DNA of 64,000 nt from Caldicellulosiruptor owensensis OL (GTDB lineage: Bacteria > Bacillota > Thermoanaerobacteria > Caldicellulosiruptorales > Caldicellulosiruptoraceae), in assembly GCF_000166335.1 (NCBI RefSeq), contig NC_014657.1, forward strand, positions 2,028,501 through 2,092,500, in the 5' to 3' direction. Both the position numbers and the translations under genes were made by a program. The notes under the pieces are model-generated. The model ran no database searches, was not told where the DNA came from, and worked only from the letters and a program-made list of their open reading frames with translations. Below are positions 8,323-48,606 of this stretch, in pieces. How positions within the stretch are numbered: the first letter of the stretch is position 1; every line of letters starts with the position of its first letter.

Positions 8323-8361
8323 AAAAAAATAAAAGAGGATTGGTATCTCATTACCACCTCT
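8323..8361 (-). terminator. Terminator after the dynamin-like gene
   Basis: On the minus strand AGAGG-TGGTA and TACCA-AT-CCTCT form a stem (8361-8334) followed by TTTTATTTTTTT. It ends the fluoride-riboswitch operon and lies next to the gltX promoter. Confidence 0.75.
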
Positions 8362-8376
8362 AACTTAGTTAATTTT

Positions 8377-10146
8377 TTATTCTGCTGCCTCACTAATAAT
8401 TTCTATAATCTCTTTCTTGATTTTTTTAATTTCGGATAATACCTCTTGATTAAATGCAATTTTTATCTCAAGTTCACTTTTATTTTTTCTCAAATCTTCC
8501 ATGGTATTACTCAGAAGTTCTGAAATAAGACTGCAAACCTGTGATACTCTATCTTCCATATCAGACTTAAAAGCTTCAAAGCTTTCCTCCATTCTTCTCA
8601 GAAGATCATACCTGATTCTGCCAATATTCCTATCAGCATCTATCTCAATTCTGTCAAGGACTCTTTTTAAAATTATTCTTTGAGCAAGTTTTCCGGGTAA
8701 AAGATAAGAAAAATAAACAGGGTCAATTTCAAGCGCACCAACCTCATAGCCTATTTTGTAAGTAAATTTACTCTTTGCTACAAACCCTTGCATTCCTTCA
8801 TAGTAACCAATCTCAATTGAAAAAAGGTCTTTTGCTGTATCCTTTATACTTTTTATAAGGTCATTTATTTTCGCGCAATATCTTGAAAGAAGAGCAGAAT
8901 ATTTCTCTTCCACATATCTTTCAACCTCTTTCTTCAAAAACTCAAATTCCTGCACAATAATTTCTTCAAGATACTTCTCTAAGTATTCCTTTTGTTTTTT
9001 TCTTTTAAGTTTTGCAACCGACGGATAATAGTTTTTTATTTTTTTTGTAATGCTTGTTATGAGCTCTTTTTTTGTTCCCTCCATTTTGTCATCAAAAACT
9101 GTTAGAATATCATTCATCTCTACCTTAAAAAGTTTGTAGATCTCCAATTTGCTCTGGTTTATCTTTTTTAAAAACTTATCAAACCTTTCTATGTTCTCTT
9201 CAAGCTGGGAAAGTGGCATGATTTTGAGCTTAATTTCATTTTCTAAAAATGTTCTGCATACCTCTAAAAAATTATCTAAACTTTTTAGATTACTTAAAAT
9301 CTGTACCTTTTCTTTTTCTTCCTGTAAAAACTTTCTTAGATGTTCTTCAAAAACTTTTATATCACTTTTTTTAAGAATATCTTTACTATTACTTAGCCTC
9401 CCTTCAAGTGCCATCTTAGCTGAAACAGGAAAAATATTTATACTTGCTTTTTTTGTAATATCCTTAATAACATTTATTGTAAATCTTATTATCTCTTCTA
9501 ATTCGTTTTTGCCTGTAAGGTCACATTTATTAATTACAAAAAATATCTTATCAACACTTTCAGAAATCCTCTGCAGAAACTTTTTTTCAACCTCAGTGAT
9601 AGGTGGGTCGACAGACAATACAAATATAACTGCATCTGCTCTATCTACAAATTCATATGTCACATCTGTATTGTGCTGATACACAGAACCAATTCCCGGT
9701 GTATCAACAATCACAACATCTTTGTTCAAAAAATCAAACGGATATCCTATCTCAATTGTATCCACACCTTTTTGATTCTCTGGATTTCCTTTTTCTGTGC
9801 AATAAAGATATAGGTCTTGAGATAAAATTTCTTTTTTCATGCCATTTTTGAAAATTACATCAACTTTAACCTCTGGACTGTAATAAATCTTTGTTATTGT
9901 TGAAGTTAATGGAAGAACTCCCGTTGGCAACAAATCTGTGCCAAGCATGTAATTTATGAGTGTTGACTTTCCCCTTTTGAACTGTCCAAGTACAACAAGG
10001 TAAAATGCATCTTTTTCTATCTTTTCTTCAATACTTTTTGCTAATTTCTTAATAGATTCGGAATCTATTTTATCTGATATCTCTTTAACCCTACTAGTAT
10101 ATTTTTTAATATTCTCCTGCATAACATCATATGTCATATTTCTCAT
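8377..10146 (-). CDS. Dynamin-family GTPase
   Basis: 589 residues. G1 loop GQFKRGKST at residues 54-62, TSTIT in switch I near 82-86, DTPGIGS near 149-155 (G3) and NKCD near 206 (G4) define a bacterial dynamin-like large GTPase. The C-terminal 330 residues are long charged helices typical of the stalk, with a weakly hydrophobic middle part (PVYFSYLLPGKLAQRIILKRVL) that could act as the membrane paddle. Such proteins remodel or protect membranes. It begins 11 bases after uspA and is the last gene of a riboswitch-led operon, suggesting a role in membrane stress from fluoride or ions; that is inference. Confidence 0.88.
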   Translation of the reverse strand: MRNMTYDVMQENIKKYTSRVKEISDKIDSESIKKLAKSIEEKIEKDAFYLVVLGQFKRGKSTLINYMLGTDLLPTGVLPLTSTITKIYYSPEVKVDVIFKNGMKKEILSQDLYLYCTEKGNPENQKGVDTIEIGYPFDFLNKDVVIVDTPGIGSVYQHNTDVTYEFVDRADAVIFVLSVDPPITEVEKKFLQRISESVDKIFFVINKCDLTGKNELEEIIRFTINVIKDITKKASINIFPVSAKMALEGRLSNSKDILKKSDIKVFEEHLRKFLQEEKEKVQILSNLKSLDNFLEVCRTFLENEIKLKIMPLSQLEENIERFDKFLKKINQSKLEIYKLFKVEMNDILTVFDDKMEGTKKELITSITKKIKNYYPSVAKLKRKKQKEYLEKYLEEIIVQEFEFLKKEVERYVEEKYSALLSRYCAKINDLIKSIKDTAKDLFSIEIGYYEGMQGFVAKSKFTYKIGYEVGALEIDPVYFSYLLPGKLAQRIILKRVLDRIEIDADRNIGRIRYDLLRRMEESFEAFKSDMEDRVSQVCSLISELLSNTMEDLRKNKSELEIKIAFNQEVLSEIKKIKKEIIEIISEAAE

Positions 10147-10157
10147 TACATCTCACC

Positions 10158-10577
10158 TCATTTGACAACCATAACTGAACAATGAGCGTGCCTTACAATA
10201 TTCTCAGCAACGTTTCCAACAATATACCTTGCAACACCACTTCTTCCCCTCTGACCAACAATAATAAGATCTGCCTTGATACTCTCTGCAAAGCTTACAA
10301 CACCATTTGCAGGATGTCCCGGGACAATTGCACAGTTTATTTCAATCCCTTCACTTTTTGCCCTGTCTATTGCCTGCTGCTGTATTTTTTCATAATACTG
10401 ACGTGCATCACTCAGTATACCGTTCAGTTCATCTTTTGTCTCCACAAAATCAGGTATATGCGCAACAGAAACAATGTGTATACTGGATTCGAACATCTTT
10501 GCAAGCTCAAGTGCTACCTCAAAGCCTTTTTTAGAATGTTCAGACCCATCATATGCAACAACAATCTTTTTATACAT
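10158..10577 (-). CDS. Universal stress protein, UspA family
   Basis: 139 residues from the ATG at 10577 (MYKKIVVAYDGSEHSKKG), chosen over an upstream ATG at 10598 because AAGGGGG lies eight bases ahead and the longer start would overlap the antiporter gene by 17 bases. The ATP-binding class signature is complete: VAYDGS at the start and G-X2-G-X9-G(S/N) as VGQRGRSGVARYIVGN near the end. UspA proteins bind ATP and modulate stress survival; they are often partners of antiporters. The gene starts four bases after the antiporter stop, so coupling is tight. Confidence 0.93.
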   Translation of the reverse strand: MYKKIVVAYDGSEHSKKGFEVALELAKMFESSIHIVSVAHIPDFVETKDELNGILSDARQYYEKIQQQAIDRAKSEGIEINCAIVPGHPANGVVSFAESIKADLIIVGQRGRSGVARYIVGNVAENIVRHAHCSVMVVK

Positions 10578-10581
10578 TGTT

Positions 10582-11715
10582 CTAAACCCCCTTATCATTT
10601 ACTTCTTCATTATTCTGAGGATTGAAAAACTTTTGAGCTATCATTGTTGGCACAACCGCACTCAATATTACAGCAGACACTAAAATAGAATACTGACTTT
10701 GAGTTATTATCCCCTTGTTCAAACCAAATAGCGCTGAAATTGTACCAAAGGTTAAACCTGTTGACATCAAAAGGGTTGTATAAATCCCTTCTTTCTTTCT
10801 GTACTTGAACATTATTGTAAATGGCCTTACACCTATATATTTTGCAATCATCTTGACAATCAGAAATGCCAAGACTATCCAGATATAATTGATAACACCA
10901 AATGTTACCTTGCTACCAGCTTTTAGAAAGTAAAAAGGAGTAAAAAGTCCAAATACCATGGCTCTGAGCCTGTATAGAAGATCTTTTTGTTTTGCGAAAA
11001 ATGGTGACATTGCAAGTCCCAAGATGTAAGCAGGCAGTACTGCTTCCATATTAGAAAGATTTGCTATTCCTCCGCAAAGCAGTATTAGTAAAAATAGATA
11101 TTTTAGTTCAAGTTGATATGTTCTATTTCCAAACTTGTTGAAGAAAGGTTCTGTATACTTGTTTGCCACAATGGTGGCTATTATCATAACAATTATAAAC
11201 ACCAGTATCCACCAGTTGTAATTAGCAAATAAAAATCCAAGCATTAAAACTGTTCCGAGGTCATTTATAAAACATGCTGCCAGAATAACCTTGCCAAGCT
11301 CTGTTGTGTTGAGACCTGTTTCTATCATCACAGCATACACAACTGCAACAGATGTGGTTGAAAGTGCAATTCCTGCAATCTGAGCTGCTCTCATATCCCA
11401 GTGGAAAATCCAGAATGCTACTCCCCATGCAAACAAAAAAGGCATCAAAAATGCAAAGATTCCTATCAACATGCTCTCTTTGAACTTGTTTTTTAAAACA
11501 TCATAATCAATCTCTGCTCCTGATAAAAATGTCAATATGATGCTTCCCATGCCAGCTAAAAAATCAATCCACTGATTTGTGTTAAGGTGCAGCAGATTCC
11601 CTGCAAGAAACCCAACAACTATCTCTACAAGCGATATGGAAATACCAGAAAAGTAAGCTAAAAATCCTGCAAACAGAGCTATTGCCATCCACTTCGAAAA
11701 CTCCAGCCACATCAA
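10582..11715 (-). CDS. Cation:proton antiporter (CPA2/KefB-like Na+/H+ exchanger domain)
   Basis: 377 residues, almost entirely membrane segments (about 11-12). Family landmarks are FLSGAEIDYDVLK after the third segment, GIALSTTSVAVVYAVMIETGLNTTELGKVILAACFINDLGTVLMLGF (the ND pair near residue 150 is the ion-binding site of this superfamily), and LPAYILGLAMSPFF. It lacks the cytosolic TrkA-N domain of KefB, and a UspA protein encoded next door may regulate it instead. Lies second in the fluoride-riboswitch operon. Exchange of Na+ or K+ for H+ is the family role; a fluoride-linked function is inferred from control. Confidence 0.88.
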   Translation of the reverse strand: MMWLEFSKWMAIALFAGFLAYFSGISISLVEIVVGFLAGNLLHLNTNQWIDFLAGMGSIILTFLSGAEIDYDVLKNKFKESMLIGIFAFLMPFLFAWGVAFWIFHWDMRAAQIAGIALSTTSVAVVYAVMIETGLNTTELGKVILAACFINDLGTVLMLGFLFANYNWWILVFIIVMIIATIVANKYTEPFFNKFGNRTYQLELKYLFLLILLCGGIANLSNMEAVLPAYILGLAMSPFFAKQKDLLYRLRAMVFGLFTPFYFLKAGSKVTFGVINYIWIVLAFLIVKMIAKYIGVRPFTIMFKYRKKEGIYTTLLMSTGLTFGTISALFGLNKGIITQSQYSILVSAVILSAVVPTMIAQKFFNPQNNEEVNDKGV

Positions 11716-11754
11716 AATCCCCCCTGTTGTTATTGGAAAAGTGGTTGAAATTGA

Positions 11755-12390
11755 CTAATCTTCAGAACCTGCAACAAACCTGACTGCCATATGCCATGAC
11801 TTTACTTCTTCAGGAGTGTAGTTTTCATGAATGTTTCGGTAATCATTCTTTTCTTTTATTTTCTCAAGATGAGTTATTATCTCATCAATTTTTCTTTTAA
11901 CAATAGATAGAAGTTCATTTTTTGTTGAAGACGAAGTCATTTTGTCTAAAACCTGATCAAGATGTCTTTGACATATAAATCCTTTTTCTGCAAATGCAGC
12001 TTTAAACTTAGGTTGAGTTTTAAAGTAGTGAGAAAATGCTCTTGTATAAGTGTCTTCAAAACTCTGTTCTTTTTCGCAAAATACGCAAATATTTTGTTCT
12101 TGATTTTTCTTTTTACGAGGTAAAATATCTACTCTATGATTGTTTTTGAAACTATTTAGCAAATCTGAATATATAATGGCATGGGCAAGTACATCTCCAA
12201 ACGACTCTAACTTTCTTGCATGCTCCGGGCATATCCCCCCTTTTCTGATTCTGTCGCGAAGGTTATAGTCATTTACAGATTCATACAGAAAATCATCAAA
12301 GAATTTGTTCATTGCCTTATTTTTTAGATGGCAAATTATACACCTGTCTTCCTTCAGGTTTTCTACCATTTCAAAATACACAATATCCAA
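11755..12390 (-). CDS. DUF6062-type Cys/His-rich cytoplasmic protein
   Basis: About 211 residues, no membrane segment. Two similar halves each carry a CxxC pair followed by a Cys-Pro-Glu-His or Cys-Gln-Arg-His element: CIICH, then GGICPEHARKL, and ICVFCEKEQ, then GFICQRHLDQVL. This looks like an internally repeated zinc or metal site. I recognise the DUF6062 pattern; its function is unknown. The start is uncertain: no ATG lies at the 5' end, and TTG at 12390 with GGGGGG seven bases ahead looks better than TTG at 12405. First gene after the fluoride riboswitch. Confidence 0.72.
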   Translation of the reverse strand: MDIVYFEMVENLKEDRCIICHLKNKAMNKFFDDFLYESVNDYNLRDRIRKGGICPEHARKLESFGDVLAHAIIYSDLLNSFKNNHRVDILPRKKKNQEQNICVFCEKEQSFEDTYTRAFSHYFKTQPKFKAAFAEKGFICQRHLDQVLDKMTSSSTKNELLSIVKRKIDEIITHLEKIKEKNDYRNIHENYTPEEVKSWHMAVRFVAGSED

Positions 12391-12439
12391 AGTGCATCCC
12401 CCCAAATCCTTTAAAAAAGCTTAAAACTCTTTAAAAAAG

Positions 12440-12476
12440 CAAAAAACTCCTGCCCGCACTTTATACGGACAGGAGT
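12440..12476 (-). terminator. Intrinsic terminator of the fluoride riboswitch
   Basis: On the minus strand ACTCCTGTCCG (12476-12466) pairs with CGGGCAGGAGT (12456-12446), one G-T wobble, followed by TTTTTT. The 5' arm is also the strand that closes the riboswitch pseudoknot, so aptamer and terminator exclude each other: fluoride should switch the operon on. Confidence 0.88.
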
Positions 12477-12530
12477 TATCAGCCAACAAGGGTATTCCCC
12501 GTGGCACTTTAAGGCGAACTCCATCGCCCT
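12467..12530 (-). ncRNA. Fluoride riboswitch (crcB motif)
   Basis: Minus-strand RNA from 12529: GGGCGATGGAGTTCGCC, a TTAAAGTGCC joining strand, an extra small hairpin, then GGCTGATAACTCC. The GGCGATG...CGCC stem, the GTGCC/GGC pairing, the GCTGATnA strand and the GGAGTT/AACTCC pairing all match the known crcB aptamer. Only the hairpin insert near 12490-12500 is longer than in the shortest examples. It sits 28 bases after a strong -10 and directly upstream of the DUF6062-antiporter-uspA-dynamin operon. Confidence 0.9.
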
Positions 12531-12556
12531 GATATTTACTTTTTCTTTCAATATTT

Positions 12557-12585
12557 ATTATATGGGGTTTTTAGAAGCAAGTCAA
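12557..12585 (-). promoter_or_regulatory. Promoter of the fluoride-riboswitch operon
   Basis: Minus strand TTGACT (12585-12580), 17-base spacer, TATAAT (12562-12557). The predicted RNA start near 12550 is about 20 bases before the aptamer. Confidence 0.85.
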
Positions 12586-12650: not shown

Positions 12651-12906
12651 TCATATCTCATTTTTACTTTTATTCTTAAAACAGTGGAATTCCAACCATG
12701 CTAATACATCTTCTTTTTTATATCTTCCTTCTGCTATACCTGTACCAAGATCAACCAGCTCTTCATCAGTATACTCAACTGATAGTTTATTCAACTCACA
12801 CAAAACAAGTAACATAGCAGTTCCTAATCTTTTATTGCCATCTATAATCGGGTGATTTTTAATTATTGAATAACATATTGTTTCTATCTTTTCAATACAT
12901 AGAAGG
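12651..12906 (-). pseudogene. Doc-type (Fic fold) toxin, C-terminal fragment cut by a TnpB element
   Basis: Reading the minus strand upstream of the TGA at 12653-12651 gives an open frame with HPIIDGNKRLGTAMLLVL, the HxFxDGNKR active-site loop of death-on-curing toxins (the usual Phe is Ile here), and ending VLAWLEFHCFKNKSKNEI. The frame stops having toxin sequence at 12906, exactly where the TnpB element's right end begins, so roughly the first half of the gene is gone. No matching antitoxin is visible. The toxin phosphorylates EF-Tu in the known system; this copy cannot be functional. Confidence 0.8.
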
Positions 12907-13166
12907 GTGAACTACCAACCACCTGTAGAGGGGGATGGCTTCGTGAGAAGTTTGGCAGTTTTTAAGCTACCCTTATTCTCACAGGGTGGTTCACACACCC
13001 ACTACTGGCTATCTGCTTCTTTGCAGACTCGCCAGCTACCTTCTTTAATATGTTCATCGCTCCATTTATATCCGCATTTACAACATACCCACACTCACTA
13101 CACACATACAATCCCCTGTACTTCCTGTTGCCTTTCCTTACTATCCCACACCTGCTGCACGTCTGT
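12907..13166 (-). pseudogene. TnpB (IS200/IS605-type OrfB) C-terminal remnant, copy 1
   Basis: The right end GTGAACTACC at 12907 matches the two other TnpB elements in the window (28706 and 47604). The coding remnant on the minus strand has CSRCGIVRKGNRKYRGLYVCSECGYVVNADINGAMNIL: the zinc ribbon and the final RuvC Asp (NADING). It reads on past the normal stop of copy 2 to end at 12962. Upstream it is cut near 13166 by a Mutator-type transposase remnant, so it is the older of two nested insertions. Confidence 0.8.
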
Positions 13167-14300
13167 GGGGAGTTAAAATAAAATTGTGTCCACTGTATAA
13201 TTAGTATTGAAATAATCATCAAAGGGAGCTATTTAACATGAATAAAAACGAAATTATTGAGACTGCTAAAAACATGGCAAAAGAAGCAAGTATTAAATAT
13301 GTAATTGCTTCCTGTGATGATCCTAACCGCCCAGCTCTAAAGAAACTTAAAGTAAAACTTGCAACACCTGCCTCAAGTCTTGAAATCTCTGTCCCTCGCA
13401 CACGTTACTTACAATTTCCGACCTTATATCCTCTTCTTCCCGCTACAAAAGAGTTGATAGTTTTCCTACTTACCTGCTTATGTCTTCAGTCACAATGGTT
13501 ATTCTTGAGCGTTCCCTTGTCCAGACTTTGAAAGCTTTGAATCTTCCATATTCCGAAAATGAAATACTAAAAATCAAAGAAGACCTTAAAAATGAGCTTG
13601 AGTTTCCCAAACAAAGAGAACTTACCTGCAAGTGCTTTTGCTATCATCATCGATGGTTATTCAAAAGTGAAGTTAAGGATAATTCTAAGGTTAAACAAGC
13701 TACTTGCAATGCCTGACTCTGTATCGACTAAGAAAGGTAAAAAAGACATTTTCGATACCTAACACTTTCTTCGGCAAAGAAAATAAGGCTTACCTAAATG
13801 AAAGTATTTGAAGACTTAATTACAAGAGGGCTAAAAGAGATTCTAATTGTCACAGTAGATGACTTCCCTTGATATTTTGATATGCTGTCAAACTTGCTTA
13901 TCCTTTTGCTGACCTTGAGCTTGCTTTTGTCCATCTCCAACGAAATAGCAGAAAACATATGATAAAAGATAAAGCTTTCCGCTCAAAATATCCTCGATTT
14001 TATTGCTGCAATATCAGAAAAAGCAGAGTTTTATTCTGTCCATATGAAATACCCTGAAAAATTAAGAAAGCTCTTTCTACAAATGCCGCTTTGTGTGTAA
14101 ATAGCATGATTGAAAAGGCAAGAAGTAAATTCAGGTGGATACTTTCAGCTGCCTGTATCTTAGAAATTAATATTTACTTGCAGCAAGAAAACTTACGCTA
14201 TGCAAAATGGAAAAATGGAGTTCCCAGTATTAGAAAATGCATTAACAACATAACCCAACTTTACAACTTACGTTATAAATTGGAAACACAAAATTCTTGA
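13167..14300 (+). pseudogene. IS256/Mutator-type transposase, heavily decayed
   Basis: Starting with ATG 13238 (MNKNEIIETAKNMAKEASIKYVI), several frames must be joined to follow the protein: frame changes occur near 13380, 13480-13500, 13620 and repeatedly between 13720 and 14090. The last piece, from about 14094, reads VNSMIEKARSKFRW and ends with YNLRYKLETQNS at 14300; VNSMIEKAR is the C-terminal catalytic-Glu region of Mutator-type transposases. The left end, after about 13167, carries GTGTCCACTG; no matching right end follows the stop codon, so that end has been deleted. Confidence 0.75.
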
Positions 14301-46049: not shown

Positions 46050-47273
46050 CTACCCATTCTCCGCCTCAAAAACCTCACCTTCCCAGTTTCTAAAAACTAC
46101 CTTGCCTTTGCCAAAGTAAAGAAGATAATTTGGCATGATTGGAGTTTTTCCCTTGCCCTTTGGTGCATTTATGATGTATGTTGGTACTGCCATTCCTGAT
46201 GTTCTTCCTCTAAGGCTCTCAATAATCTCCATACCCTCTTCAATTGTCACCCAAAAGTGCGATGTTCCTTTTACTCTTTTGGGATGAAAGATATAGTATG
46301 GCTTTACTCGGATTTTCAAAAGCTGTTGATTGAGCTTTCGAACAATGTACTTGTCGTTGTTGACCCCATTTAACAAAACCATCTGGTTGCCAAGTGGAAT
46401 GCCACTGTCTGCCAGCATTTCACATGCCCTTTTTGATTCTTTTGTTATCTCACGCGGATGGTTAAAATGGGTGTTTATATAAATAGGGTGATATTTCTTT
46501 AGCATATCGACAAGCTCTTTTGTTATCTTTTGTGGCAACGTTACAGGTGCCCTTGTTCCAATTCTGATTATCTCAACATGAGGAATCTGCCTGAGTGACC
46601 TTAAAATCCACTCCAAAATCTCATCAGAGAGCATCAAAGCATCGCCACCTGTAATTAGAACATCTCGAATGTGAGGGTTTTTTGCCACATACTCTATTGC
46701 ATCTGTAATATCATCTAAGGATGCATGTGTGTCAGTCTCGCCAATGAGCCTTCTTCGCTGGCAAAATCTGCAAAACATCCCACATATATTTGTAACCTTT
46801 ATAATAAGCCTGTCTGGGTATCGCTGCGTGACTATCTTGGTAGGGGAGGTGTGCTCTTCATCCATTGGGTCAAGCTCTCCTTTTTCTATCAACTCAAATG
46901 AGCTTGGGACTGATTGCTTTTTTATTGGGCAGTTTGGGTCATCTGGGTCAATTAGCGATAAATAGTAAGGTGAGATTGCAAAACGGTAAACCTTGGCTAC
47001 CTCTTCAATTTGCTGCGCTTCTTTTTCATCAAGATTTAAAAGTTCTTTTAGTATTTTGGCTGAGGTAATCCTATTTTTCAGCTGCCACTTATAATTTGCC
47101 CAATCTTTTTCGCATGCTCTAAAGTAGGAAAGAATCTTTCTCTTTTGATATTCAATCCTTTCCTCATCCTCGATGCCAGTTTTGATTGTGTCTCTGACTT
47201 CTAAGTAGTCTTTAATAGCTTCTTTTAACTTTTCAAAACTTTCATTGTTGTTGATAACATTTAACTTTTCCAT
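46050..47273 (-). CDS. Radical-SAM 2,3-aminomutase (KamA family), likely glutamate type
   Basis: 407 residues from ATG 47273, with AAAGGAGG eight bases ahead; an 11-codon extension to 47306 would include that site. CGMFCRFCQR near residue 160 is the CxxxCxxC cluster site, ITGGDALMLSD follows and TSGMAVPTYIINAPKGKGKTPIMPNY holds the PLP lysine region. The enzyme moves an amino group from C2 to C3. In the lysine enzyme two Asp residues hold the substrate's terminal amine, in GVND and CDLS-type contexts; here these read LNGVNNDK and FHPKRVKG, non-acidic, which favours glutamate. Beta-glutamate is an osmolyte. Controlled by the c-di-AMP riboswitch upstream. Confidence 0.88.
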   Translation of the reverse strand: MEKLNVINNNESFEKLKEAIKDYLEVRDTIKTGIEDEERIEYQKRKILSYFRACEKDWANYKWQLKNRITSAKILKELLNLDEKEAQQIEEVAKVYRFAISPYYLSLIDPDDPNCPIKKQSVPSSFELIEKGELDPMDEEHTSPTKIVTQRYPDRLIIKVTNICGMFCRFCQRRRLIGETDTHASLDDITDAIEYVAKNPHIRDVLITGGDALMLSDEILEWILRSLRQIPHVEIIRIGTRAPVTLPQKITKELVDMLKKYHPIYINTHFNHPREITKESKRACEMLADSGIPLGNQMVLLNGVNNDKYIVRKLNQQLLKIRVKPYYIFHPKRVKGTSHFWVTIEEGMEIIESLRGRTSGMAVPTYIINAPKGKGKTPIMPNYLLYFGKGKVVFRNWEGEVFEAENG

Positions 47274-47302
47274 ATCTATAAAACCTCCTTTCAAAATATT
47301 GG

Positions 47303-47351
47303 ACAAAAATAAAAGCAGCCAAACCCCATAACCTCGGAATTTGGCTGCTTT
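47303..47351 (-). terminator. Terminator and anti-terminator of the c-di-AMP riboswitch
   Basis: On the minus strand AAAGCAGCCAAA (47351-47340) pairs with TTTGGCTGCTTT (47323-47312), followed by TATTTTT. The loop contains TTCCGAGGTTA (47339-47329), an exact complement of TAACCTCGGAA in the aptamer's 3' part (47436-47426). Aptamer folding frees the loop so that the terminator forms; without ligand the 11-bp pairing acts as anti-terminator. Ligand should switch expression off. Confidence 0.85.
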
Positions 47352-47407
47352 GAAATCAAAGGCAAAGGAATGTCTCCCTTTTCAAAAAAAGGCATAAAAA
47401 ACTCCTT

Positions 47408-47558
47408 TTGCCTCCCTTTCAAAGCTTCCGAGGTTAGCTGACGGGTTCGGGCCGAAAGGGTTAGCCCTACAGAAGCTTTTGCTTCTGATTCACCCCAAAA
47501 AGGTTGGGTCCCCCGTATCCCAGGTTTTTAACCTGGGAATTCAGCTTTTCAAAAGGAG
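47408..47558 (-). ncRNA. c-di-AMP riboswitch (ydaO/yuaA class)
   Basis: The minus strand reads the full set of conserved blocks in order: GGGGGACCCA, TTGGGGTGAATC, GTAGGGCTAACC, CCCGAACCCGTCAGCTAACCTCGGAAGC. The P1 helix is formed by CTCCTTTTGAAAAGCT near 47558-47543 and AGCTTTGAAAGGGAG near 47424-47410. The variable hairpins CCAGG-TTAAAAA-CCTGG and AGAAGC-AAAA-GCTTCT are where this class varies. It lies 135 bases upstream of the aminomutase start. Confidence 0.95.
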
Positions 47559-47603: not shown

Positions 47604-47700
47604 GTGAACTACCATCCACCTAAAGAGGTGAAGGCTTCATGAGAAGTTTGGTAGCTTTCATGCTACCCTTATTCTTACAGGGTGGTTCACACACCCACTA
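47604..47700 (-). ncRNA. Predicted omega RNA scaffold of TnpB copy 3
   Basis: Same pairings as at 28706-28802: GTGAACCACC with GGTAGTTCAC, GTAAGAA with TTCTCAT and GGTAGCAT with AGCTACC. Base changes mostly keep pairing. The predicted guide beyond the end is TTTAAATGAGTTGATATGAA (47603-47584). Confidence 0.5.
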
Positions 47701-48606
47701 CTGGTTACCTGCTTTACTGCAGACTCACCAGCTACTTTCGCAAGTATGTTTATCGCTCCGTTTATATCCGCATTCAATACATTCCCACACTCTTTGCATA
47801 TATACAACCCTCTGTATCTTCTGTTACTTTTCTTTACTATCCCACACCTGCTACATGTTTGTGATGTGAAACTTTCATCTACTTCAATGTACTCTATGCT
47901 ATACTCTTCACACTTTGCCCCAAGCTTCCTCTTGAACTTCTCATATGGAATACTTACAAAATTTTGATTGTTTAACTTACCAAGTTCAATTCCTTGTTTT
48001 ATATTCTTCATTTCTCCAACTACTACTGTACCAATTTGATTATTTAGACAATGCTTAACTATTAGGTTTACAGCTTGATTCAAAAAATTGTCAATTATGG
48101 GATGTCTTCTAAAAAAAATTTAAGCAACTTTTTGCCATATTTAAATCCCTGCTTGCTGTAGATTGACTGTAATCTTGCTCTTTCTTTGTTGTAACATCGG
48201 TTGACTGACTTTATATACCTGCCTTCTATCAAAAAGGCAGTCCCGATTGTGTCAACCACTGCTGCAAAATTGTCAAGACCAAGGTCTATTGATAAGTACC
48301 TGTCTTTGTTTAAATTGCAAGGTTGGGTGGTCTCTTCGTACACATACTCAATCTCAAACCATTTACCATGAAACTGGGGTACTATTATAATTTCTTTTAT
48401 TTTCTTGTCTCTAATATTTTGTAGCAGGTCAAAATACAAATACCTTGCCCCAAACTCCTTGTAAAATCCATTACCAAGACTAAGTCTTAGTTTGTTTTCT
48501 TTTACCTTGAACTGGTCTTTTGGAAAACTAAGAAGAAACATTCCATCTTTGGGCAGGTACTTTGGCATAGAAATCTTTTTGTCAATCTTCCCTTTTTTCT
48601 TAGCTA
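47658..48606 (-). pseudogene. tnpB: tnpB, truncated and frameshifted (copy 3)
   Basis: From the junction at 48606 the frame reads KKKGKIDKKISMPKYLPKDG, then the RuvC-I LSIDLGLDNFAAVVD, and breaks at 48095 (KKLLKFFLEDIP, stop). The second frame (48083-47658) has IGTVVVGEMKNIKQ with the RuvC-II Glu, the zinc ribbon CSRCGIVKK...CKECG and NADINGAINIL. The N-terminal domain is missing and the frame is broken, so it cannot make an active nuclease. Confidence 0.85.

Follow-up and report, generated by a model that had tools for sequence, protein, structure and literature searches.

A fluoride riboswitch operon of Caldicellulosiruptor owensensis OL with DUF6062 and dynamin-like genes that recur behind fluoride aptamers in other bacterial families

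Fluoride riboswitches of the crcB motif (RF01734) are known to govern genes for CrcB, enolase, antiporters, universal stress proteins (Usp) and MutS (PMC2864571, PMC5533749, PMC11139923), and known fluoride defence consists of export, extra copies of the inhibited enzymes and pH control. The fluoride-resistance operon of Enterobacter cloacae FRM (ppaC-uspA-eno-gpmA-crcB-orf5249) combines an exporter with fluoride-inhibited enzymes (PMC5533749). Here we describe an operon from a 64,000-nucleotide stretch of the Caldicellulosiruptor owensensis OL genome (contig NC_014657.1, positions 2,028,501 to 2,092,500; hereafter the window) that resembles the E. cloacae operon in being riboswitch-led, multigene and equipped with a Usp gene, but that holds an antiporter, a DUF6062 protein and a dynamin-like GTPase, and no exporter. 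DUF6062 and a distinct group of dynamins recur behind fluoride aptamers across bacterial families, and we consider it likely, from gene order and comparative genomics, that the operon responds to fluoride and that both proteins take part in the response. The open-licence literature, Baker et al. 2012 not included, yielded no paper joining fluoride riboswitches with dynamins or naming DUF6062; the regulatory kind is known, and the two appear to be new effector families for it. A reading of the window from its sequence alone (the sequence-only reading) had already suspected this novelty, which the recurrence across genomes now supports.

The operon lies on the minus strand and runs, in order, through a promoter, the aptamer, a terminator, the genes for DUF6062, antiporter, Usp and the dynamin-like protein, and a terminal hairpin. 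Its sigma-70-type promoter (TTGACT-17-TATAAT, 12557..12585), assigned by consensus match only, agrees with the consensus at 11 of 12 positions and is the top match between 8100 and 13000. The aptamer (12463..12537) matches RF01734 over the full model (1-64 of 64) with 46.9 bits (E 7.3e-10), exceeding the gathering score of 34, and scores 52.4 bits against the R1 model, whose 27 source sequences include the window's own. P1, P3 and the loop-tail pseudoknot are all present and have covariation support across the 27 aptamers, in whose alignment 99.4% of cells are paired and covarying. The pseudoknot joins AACUCC in the 3' half of the aptamer to a GGAGU or GGAGC loop, and one of its pairs is UA in 14 aptamers and CG in 13, with zero exceptions. 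Apart from a P3 longer than the consensus, the RNA is the same as the described motif.

A strong terminator (12445..12477; 15-pair stem, -23.3 kcal/mol, z -7.5, then a U-run) overlaps the 3' end of the aptamer, and its 5' arm is the same AACUCC that forms the 3' pseudoknot strand. Because pseudoknot and terminator share this strand and are mutually exclusive, ligand binding should block termination, and the RNA structure thus predicts an ON switch, in the arrangement reported for the crcB motif by Weinberg et al. (PMC2864571). At low fluoride the 12477-12445 hairpin would end transcription ahead of DUF6062; fluoride, with Mg2+, would stabilise the aptamer pseudoknot and keep the ACUCC strand from the terminator, so that all four genes are transcribed. 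It is from this architecture that we infer a fluoride response in C. owensensis OL.

The first gene (11755..12390) encodes a DUF6062 protein of 211 aa (PF19538, 63.7 bits, cut-off 27) with two CxxC...CxxH sites; it probably starts at the TTG at 12390, a choice supported by the starts of its homologues, the sister genus having ATG. The second (10582..11712) encodes a CPA2-like cation:proton antiporter of the PF00999 superfamily (132 bits) with at least 8 hydrophobic segments, whose 96 bits against the CPA2 subfamily model TIGR00932 lie under the curated cut-off of 238. It is followed by a 139-aa universal stress protein of the UspA family (10158..10577; PF00582, 121 bits vs cut-off 24) and by a 589-aa dynamin-like GTPase (8377..10146; PF00350, 111 bits, 6e-32) with intact G motifs. 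Downstream lies the terminal hairpin (approximately 8333..8361, AGAGGUGGUA...UACCAAUCCUCU, then a T-rich tail), of moderate stability only (z -1.7). The layout described in the sequence-only reading is thereby borne out in all its parts. Were the aptamer nonfunctional, or Usp and the dynamin transcribed from an internal promoter, part of the unit would lie outside fluoride control, and weak promoter-like matches do occur inside the operon. These matches stand at chance level, however (22 found vs 18.1 +/- 4.3 expected), the genes are separated by only 42, 4 and 11 nt, no intrinsic terminator was found between them, and the aptamer is kept in every genome of the taxonomic family, all of which makes this alternative highly improbable.

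The sequence-only reading had also stated that the unit lacks CrcB and CLC-F and had proposed that it replaces or assists the missing channel. The absence stands for the operon, none of whose four proteins matched either fluoride exporter, and, for CLC, for the whole genome, a single 2.43-Mb contig from which CLC-family genes are absent. It fails for CrcB at genome scale: of the two RF01734 matches in the genome, the second and stronger (55.6 bits), located elsewhere, heads two PF02537 genes, a crcB1-crcB2 pair. With this riboswitch-led pair present, the window operon, which we infer to be a second one induced by fluoride in this genome, would add to export rather than substitute for it, and in other genomes DUF6062 or dynamin genes share operons with crcB, so that replacement of a missing channel is contradicted. 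The dynamin-like gene is the sole one of its kind found in the host genome, which also encodes a second DUF6062 protein (238 bits) that has no aptamer.

Comparison within the window's taxonomic family identifies DUF6062 as the constant member of this locus. All 13 family genomes contain at least two aptamers, and in all 13 the second is followed by DUF6062 or a remnant of it (full length in 10, truncated in 2, internally deleted in 1), a conservation that excludes a chance link. The genes downstream vary: antiporter-Usp-dynamin follows DUF6062 in 3 of the 13, the window included, the dynamin alone in 3 more (one of these genes being divided between two frames), one genome has an interrupted dynamin, and the remaining ones have neither the dynamin nor the antiporter-Usp pair, which is therefore optional. 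It could be argued that the fluoride function lies solely with the antiporter and Usp, both being established fluoride-riboswitch genes (PMC11139923, PMC5533749), and that DUF6062 and the dynamin are co-transcribed passengers. Yet the antiporter and Usp are missing from the locus in 10 of 13 family genomes and DUF6062 or its remnant still sits directly behind the aptamer, and the dynamin itself is the first gene behind the aptamer in 17 cases; we regard passenger status as very unlikely. Two dynamin genes of the family show particular lesions: at L034 (G004, a sister species) the gene is interrupted by an apparent IS200/IS605 element, leaving open reading frames (ORFs) of 136 aa and 388 aa, and at L032 it lies in two frames.

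The association of DUF6062 with fluoride aptamers extends well beyond this family. In the class sample (37 genomes), all 12 DUF6062 genes outside the family, from 11 genomes, are preceded by an aptamer, at a distance of ~150 nt or less in 11 cases and with an insertion between in the remaining one. The phylum sample (398 genomes) contains DUF6062 in 53 genomes and the aptamer in 156; outside the class, 11 DUF6062 genes from 8 families stand directly behind an aptamer and further ones occupy the second or third position in operons led by an aptamer. Aptamer density in this sample, by our estimate, is about 1 per several megabases, so chance adjacency is negligible. A scan of named genomes with a family-only DUF6062 alignment found no relative, and a broader alignment gave 37 loci. 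In other phyla, RF01734 exceeds its cut-off directly before DUF6062 on one Omnitrophota, one UBP3 and one Chthonomonadales (Armatimonadota) contig (L241, L240 and L266; 55.7, 46.4 and 41.9 bits), and on a second Chthonomonadales contig (L268) it scores 32.8 bits before DUF6062, slightly under the cut-off. The first Chthonomonadales contig holds aptamer, DUF6062, enolase and dynamin together, and a Chloroflexota contig has DUF6062, enolase, crcB and aptamers in one locus. The search of other aptamer-led operons suggested by the sequence-only reading thus returned many examples across families, making DUF6062 and the dynamin recurrent members of what looks like a fluoride-stress unit and not a local accident.

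For the dynamin, we ran a profile of 14 dynamins from DUF6062 loci against the 398 phylum genomes. Thirty-six homologues scored at least 366 bits, and 33 of them have a same-strand aptamer no more than 3.2 kb upstream, the dynamin being the first gene, with the aptamer within 160 nt, in 17; the three exceptions lie near a contig start, inside a fluoride cluster, and 172 nt from a divergent aptamer. The fair count, because the profile seeds were taken from DUF6062 loci, is that obtained without the seeds and the window's genus, in which 18 of 21 dynamins have an upstream aptamer. As a control, no aptamer was found in the 112 kb around 18 dynamin loci scoring at most 339 bits; a 14-bit match in a different locus is noise, and the contig breaks off on the upstream side of the 339-bit gene. 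Mapped on the dynamin tree, the fluoride-linked label requires 3 changes, vs 16.9 in shuffles, indicating that fluoride-linked dynamins cluster, with long branches that bar a strict claim of single origin. In two families (f41 and f92; L226, L227, L228, L229 and L233) two ORFs come after the dynamin, one for a MoxR-like AAA ATPase and another that is likewise conserved.

The window dynamin carries a P-loop (GQFKRGKS, 54), DTPG (148) and NKCD (206), and hydropathy reveals no strongly hydrophobic segment, as would fit a soluble GTPase that associates with membranes peripherally. It shares the Dynamin_N GTPase domain and intact G motifs with Bacillus subtilis DynA and LeoA-type dynamins, with weak profile matches to both (LeoA 86 bits; DynA 68 bits, against a cut-off of 1600 for the DynA equivalog NF052648), but it differs from them as a single gene in its own sequence cluster, behind fluoride aptamers. 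These distant similarities, together with the membrane-surveillance and phage-tolerance roles of DynA (PMC8844932), raise the possibility that the protein is a general membrane-surveillance dynamin placed under fluoride control because hydrogen fluoride (HF) damages membranes, with DUF6062 as its partner or regulator. Such a partnership would fit the side-by-side position of the two genes at several loci, with DUF6062 leading at L031, L171, L172 and L179 and the dynamin leading at L145 and L168. The fluoride-linked dynamins, however, are single genes in a cluster of their own, whereas several control dynamins are paired and LeoA-like, and no phage-defence neighbours were noticed, so we rate a general surveillance role as credible and somewhat short of probable.

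Antiporter, Usp and dynamin genes stand in the same order in another family of the class (L220) and at L139 (f5) and L137 (f117); f112 (L230, L231) also has this order, with an extra aptamer between Usp and dynamin. DUF6062 or the dynamin occurs with crcB, often behind one aptamer, at L140, L145, L148, L152, L218 and L219, and with enolase at L217 and L266; the loci also hold paired MutS-domain proteins and a major facilitator superfamily (MFS) protein. Antiporters, UspA and MutS are described fluoride-riboswitch genes (PMC11139923, PMC5533749, PMC2864571), as the sequence-only reading had stated for antiporters and stress proteins. The rearranged-looking locus of G312 (L154), with a truncated dynamin and an ORF fusing enolase-like and DUF6062-like stretches, was excluded from the adjacency evidence. 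Several fluoride islands contain divergent aptamer pairs on both strands (L141, L229, L217, L169), and tandem aptamers ~120 nt apart precede an antiporter at L124 (499-681) and L220 (4709-4899). At L035 (5123-5871) and L121-L126 the genes after DUF6062 or the dynamin encode a 113-aa protein that matches no Pfam family and a zinc-ribbon-HEAT protein, both further candidates for the fluoride regulon. A row at L261 comprises a dynamin-like fragment, crcB, a DUF190-CBS protein, MFS, DUF6062 and zinc-ribbon-HEAT genes, with no aptamer detected.

The window's DUF6062 protein is 21-36% identical to the other aligned sequences. The only invariant columns among 38 sequences are eight Cys and His residues in two repeats (C17, C20, C54, H57 and C102, C105, C140, H143), and the two halves of the protein are homologous to each other (hhalign probability 96%). 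An AlphaFold2 model is all-helical and confident (predicted local distance difference test [pLDDT] 91.9, predicted template modelling score [pTM] 0.86); searches of the PDB by sequence and by fold turned up no convincing match (lowest E 0.016, with ribosomal protein S18, and 1.1). We read the protein as a pseudo-twofold helical protein with two putative Cys3His metal sites. By its PF19538 score the window protein is a regular member of the Pfam family, but it belongs to the aptamer-linked set, unlike the higher-scoring paralogue in the same genome. In the window's family, the consensus E/R at positions 177/180, nearly invariant elsewhere, is K/E, a charge swap that may mark a reversed salt bridge.

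Complexes of metals with fluoride resemble the transition states of phosphoryl transfer and inhibit GTPases and phosphotransferases. DUF6062, the GTPase or both might accordingly handle such complexes (AlFx, MgFx, or Zn- or Fe-fluoride) instead of membranes. The invariant Cys/His columns would suit this role, as would the presence among the neighbours of enolase, a fluoride-inhibited metalloenzyme; the same sites may, however, be purely structural, and we consider this explanation unlikely.

Several observations weigh against a fluoride-response role for DUF6062 and the dynamin. Of the 13 family genomes, 8 have a broken dynamin or none and 3 carry a truncated or deleted DUF6062, so neither is essential. 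The seeds of the dynamin profile came mostly from aptamer-bearing loci, and whole fluoride islands may spread horizontally, in which case the families do not represent fully independent events. The majority of DUF6062 genes beyond the class lack an aptamer. Many aptamer-free members, among them those of families f24 and f11 and the host's own paralogue, have unrelated neighbours, so the domain family extends further than the fluoride response. For f24 and f11, a check for fluoride genes near the aptamer-free DUF6062 genes had a negative outcome.

We nonetheless favor the view that the operon is a fluoride-response unit served by both proteins, and hypothesize that it works as follows. The crcB1-crcB2 pair, under its own aptamer, would export fluoride. 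On entering the cell HF dissociates, which acidifies the cytoplasm and drains the proton gradient; the antiporter and Usp would counter the acidification and energy loss, roles that fit the acid and proton-gradient stress caused by HF (PMC11139923). The dynamin and DUF6062 would be two conserved non-exporter fluoride-tolerance proteins, the former most likely keeping the membrane intact or reshaping it under HF or acid stress, by analogy with DynA, and the latter working with the dynamin or protecting metal-dependent functions attacked by fluoride. Membrane remodelling is suggested by the dynamin family name. The link of both proteins with fluoride aptamers is strong, but the particular jobs proposed here for them are tentative and on the doubtful side. 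Opinion is evenly balanced, in our judgment, on the broader proposal that DUF6062 and this distinct dynamin clade form a widespread non-exporter fluoride-tolerance module of several phyla, acting together against an unrecognised kind of fluoride damage. If that is true, recurrence in ~20 bacterial families would mean that fluoride also harms something that requires a dynamin and a metal-site protein; DUF6062 would be placed in a functional setting for the first time, and the dynamin clade would gain a defined inducer, making both directly testable.

Elsewhere in the window, remnants of the C termini of TnpB-type proteins lie at 12962-13222 (minus strand), upstream of the fluoride operon, and at 47658-48083 (minus strand), and a short ORF at 12651-12890 (minus strand) with the sequence HPIIDGNKRLG and no Pfam match looks like a C-terminal piece of a Fic/Doc protein. 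A cyclic di-AMP (c-di-AMP) riboswitch (47407-47556, minus strand, 101 bits) stands directly before an ORF at 46050-47306 (minus strand) that reads like lysine 2,3-aminomutase, so that c-di-AMP may control an osmolyte (beta-lysine) gene here.

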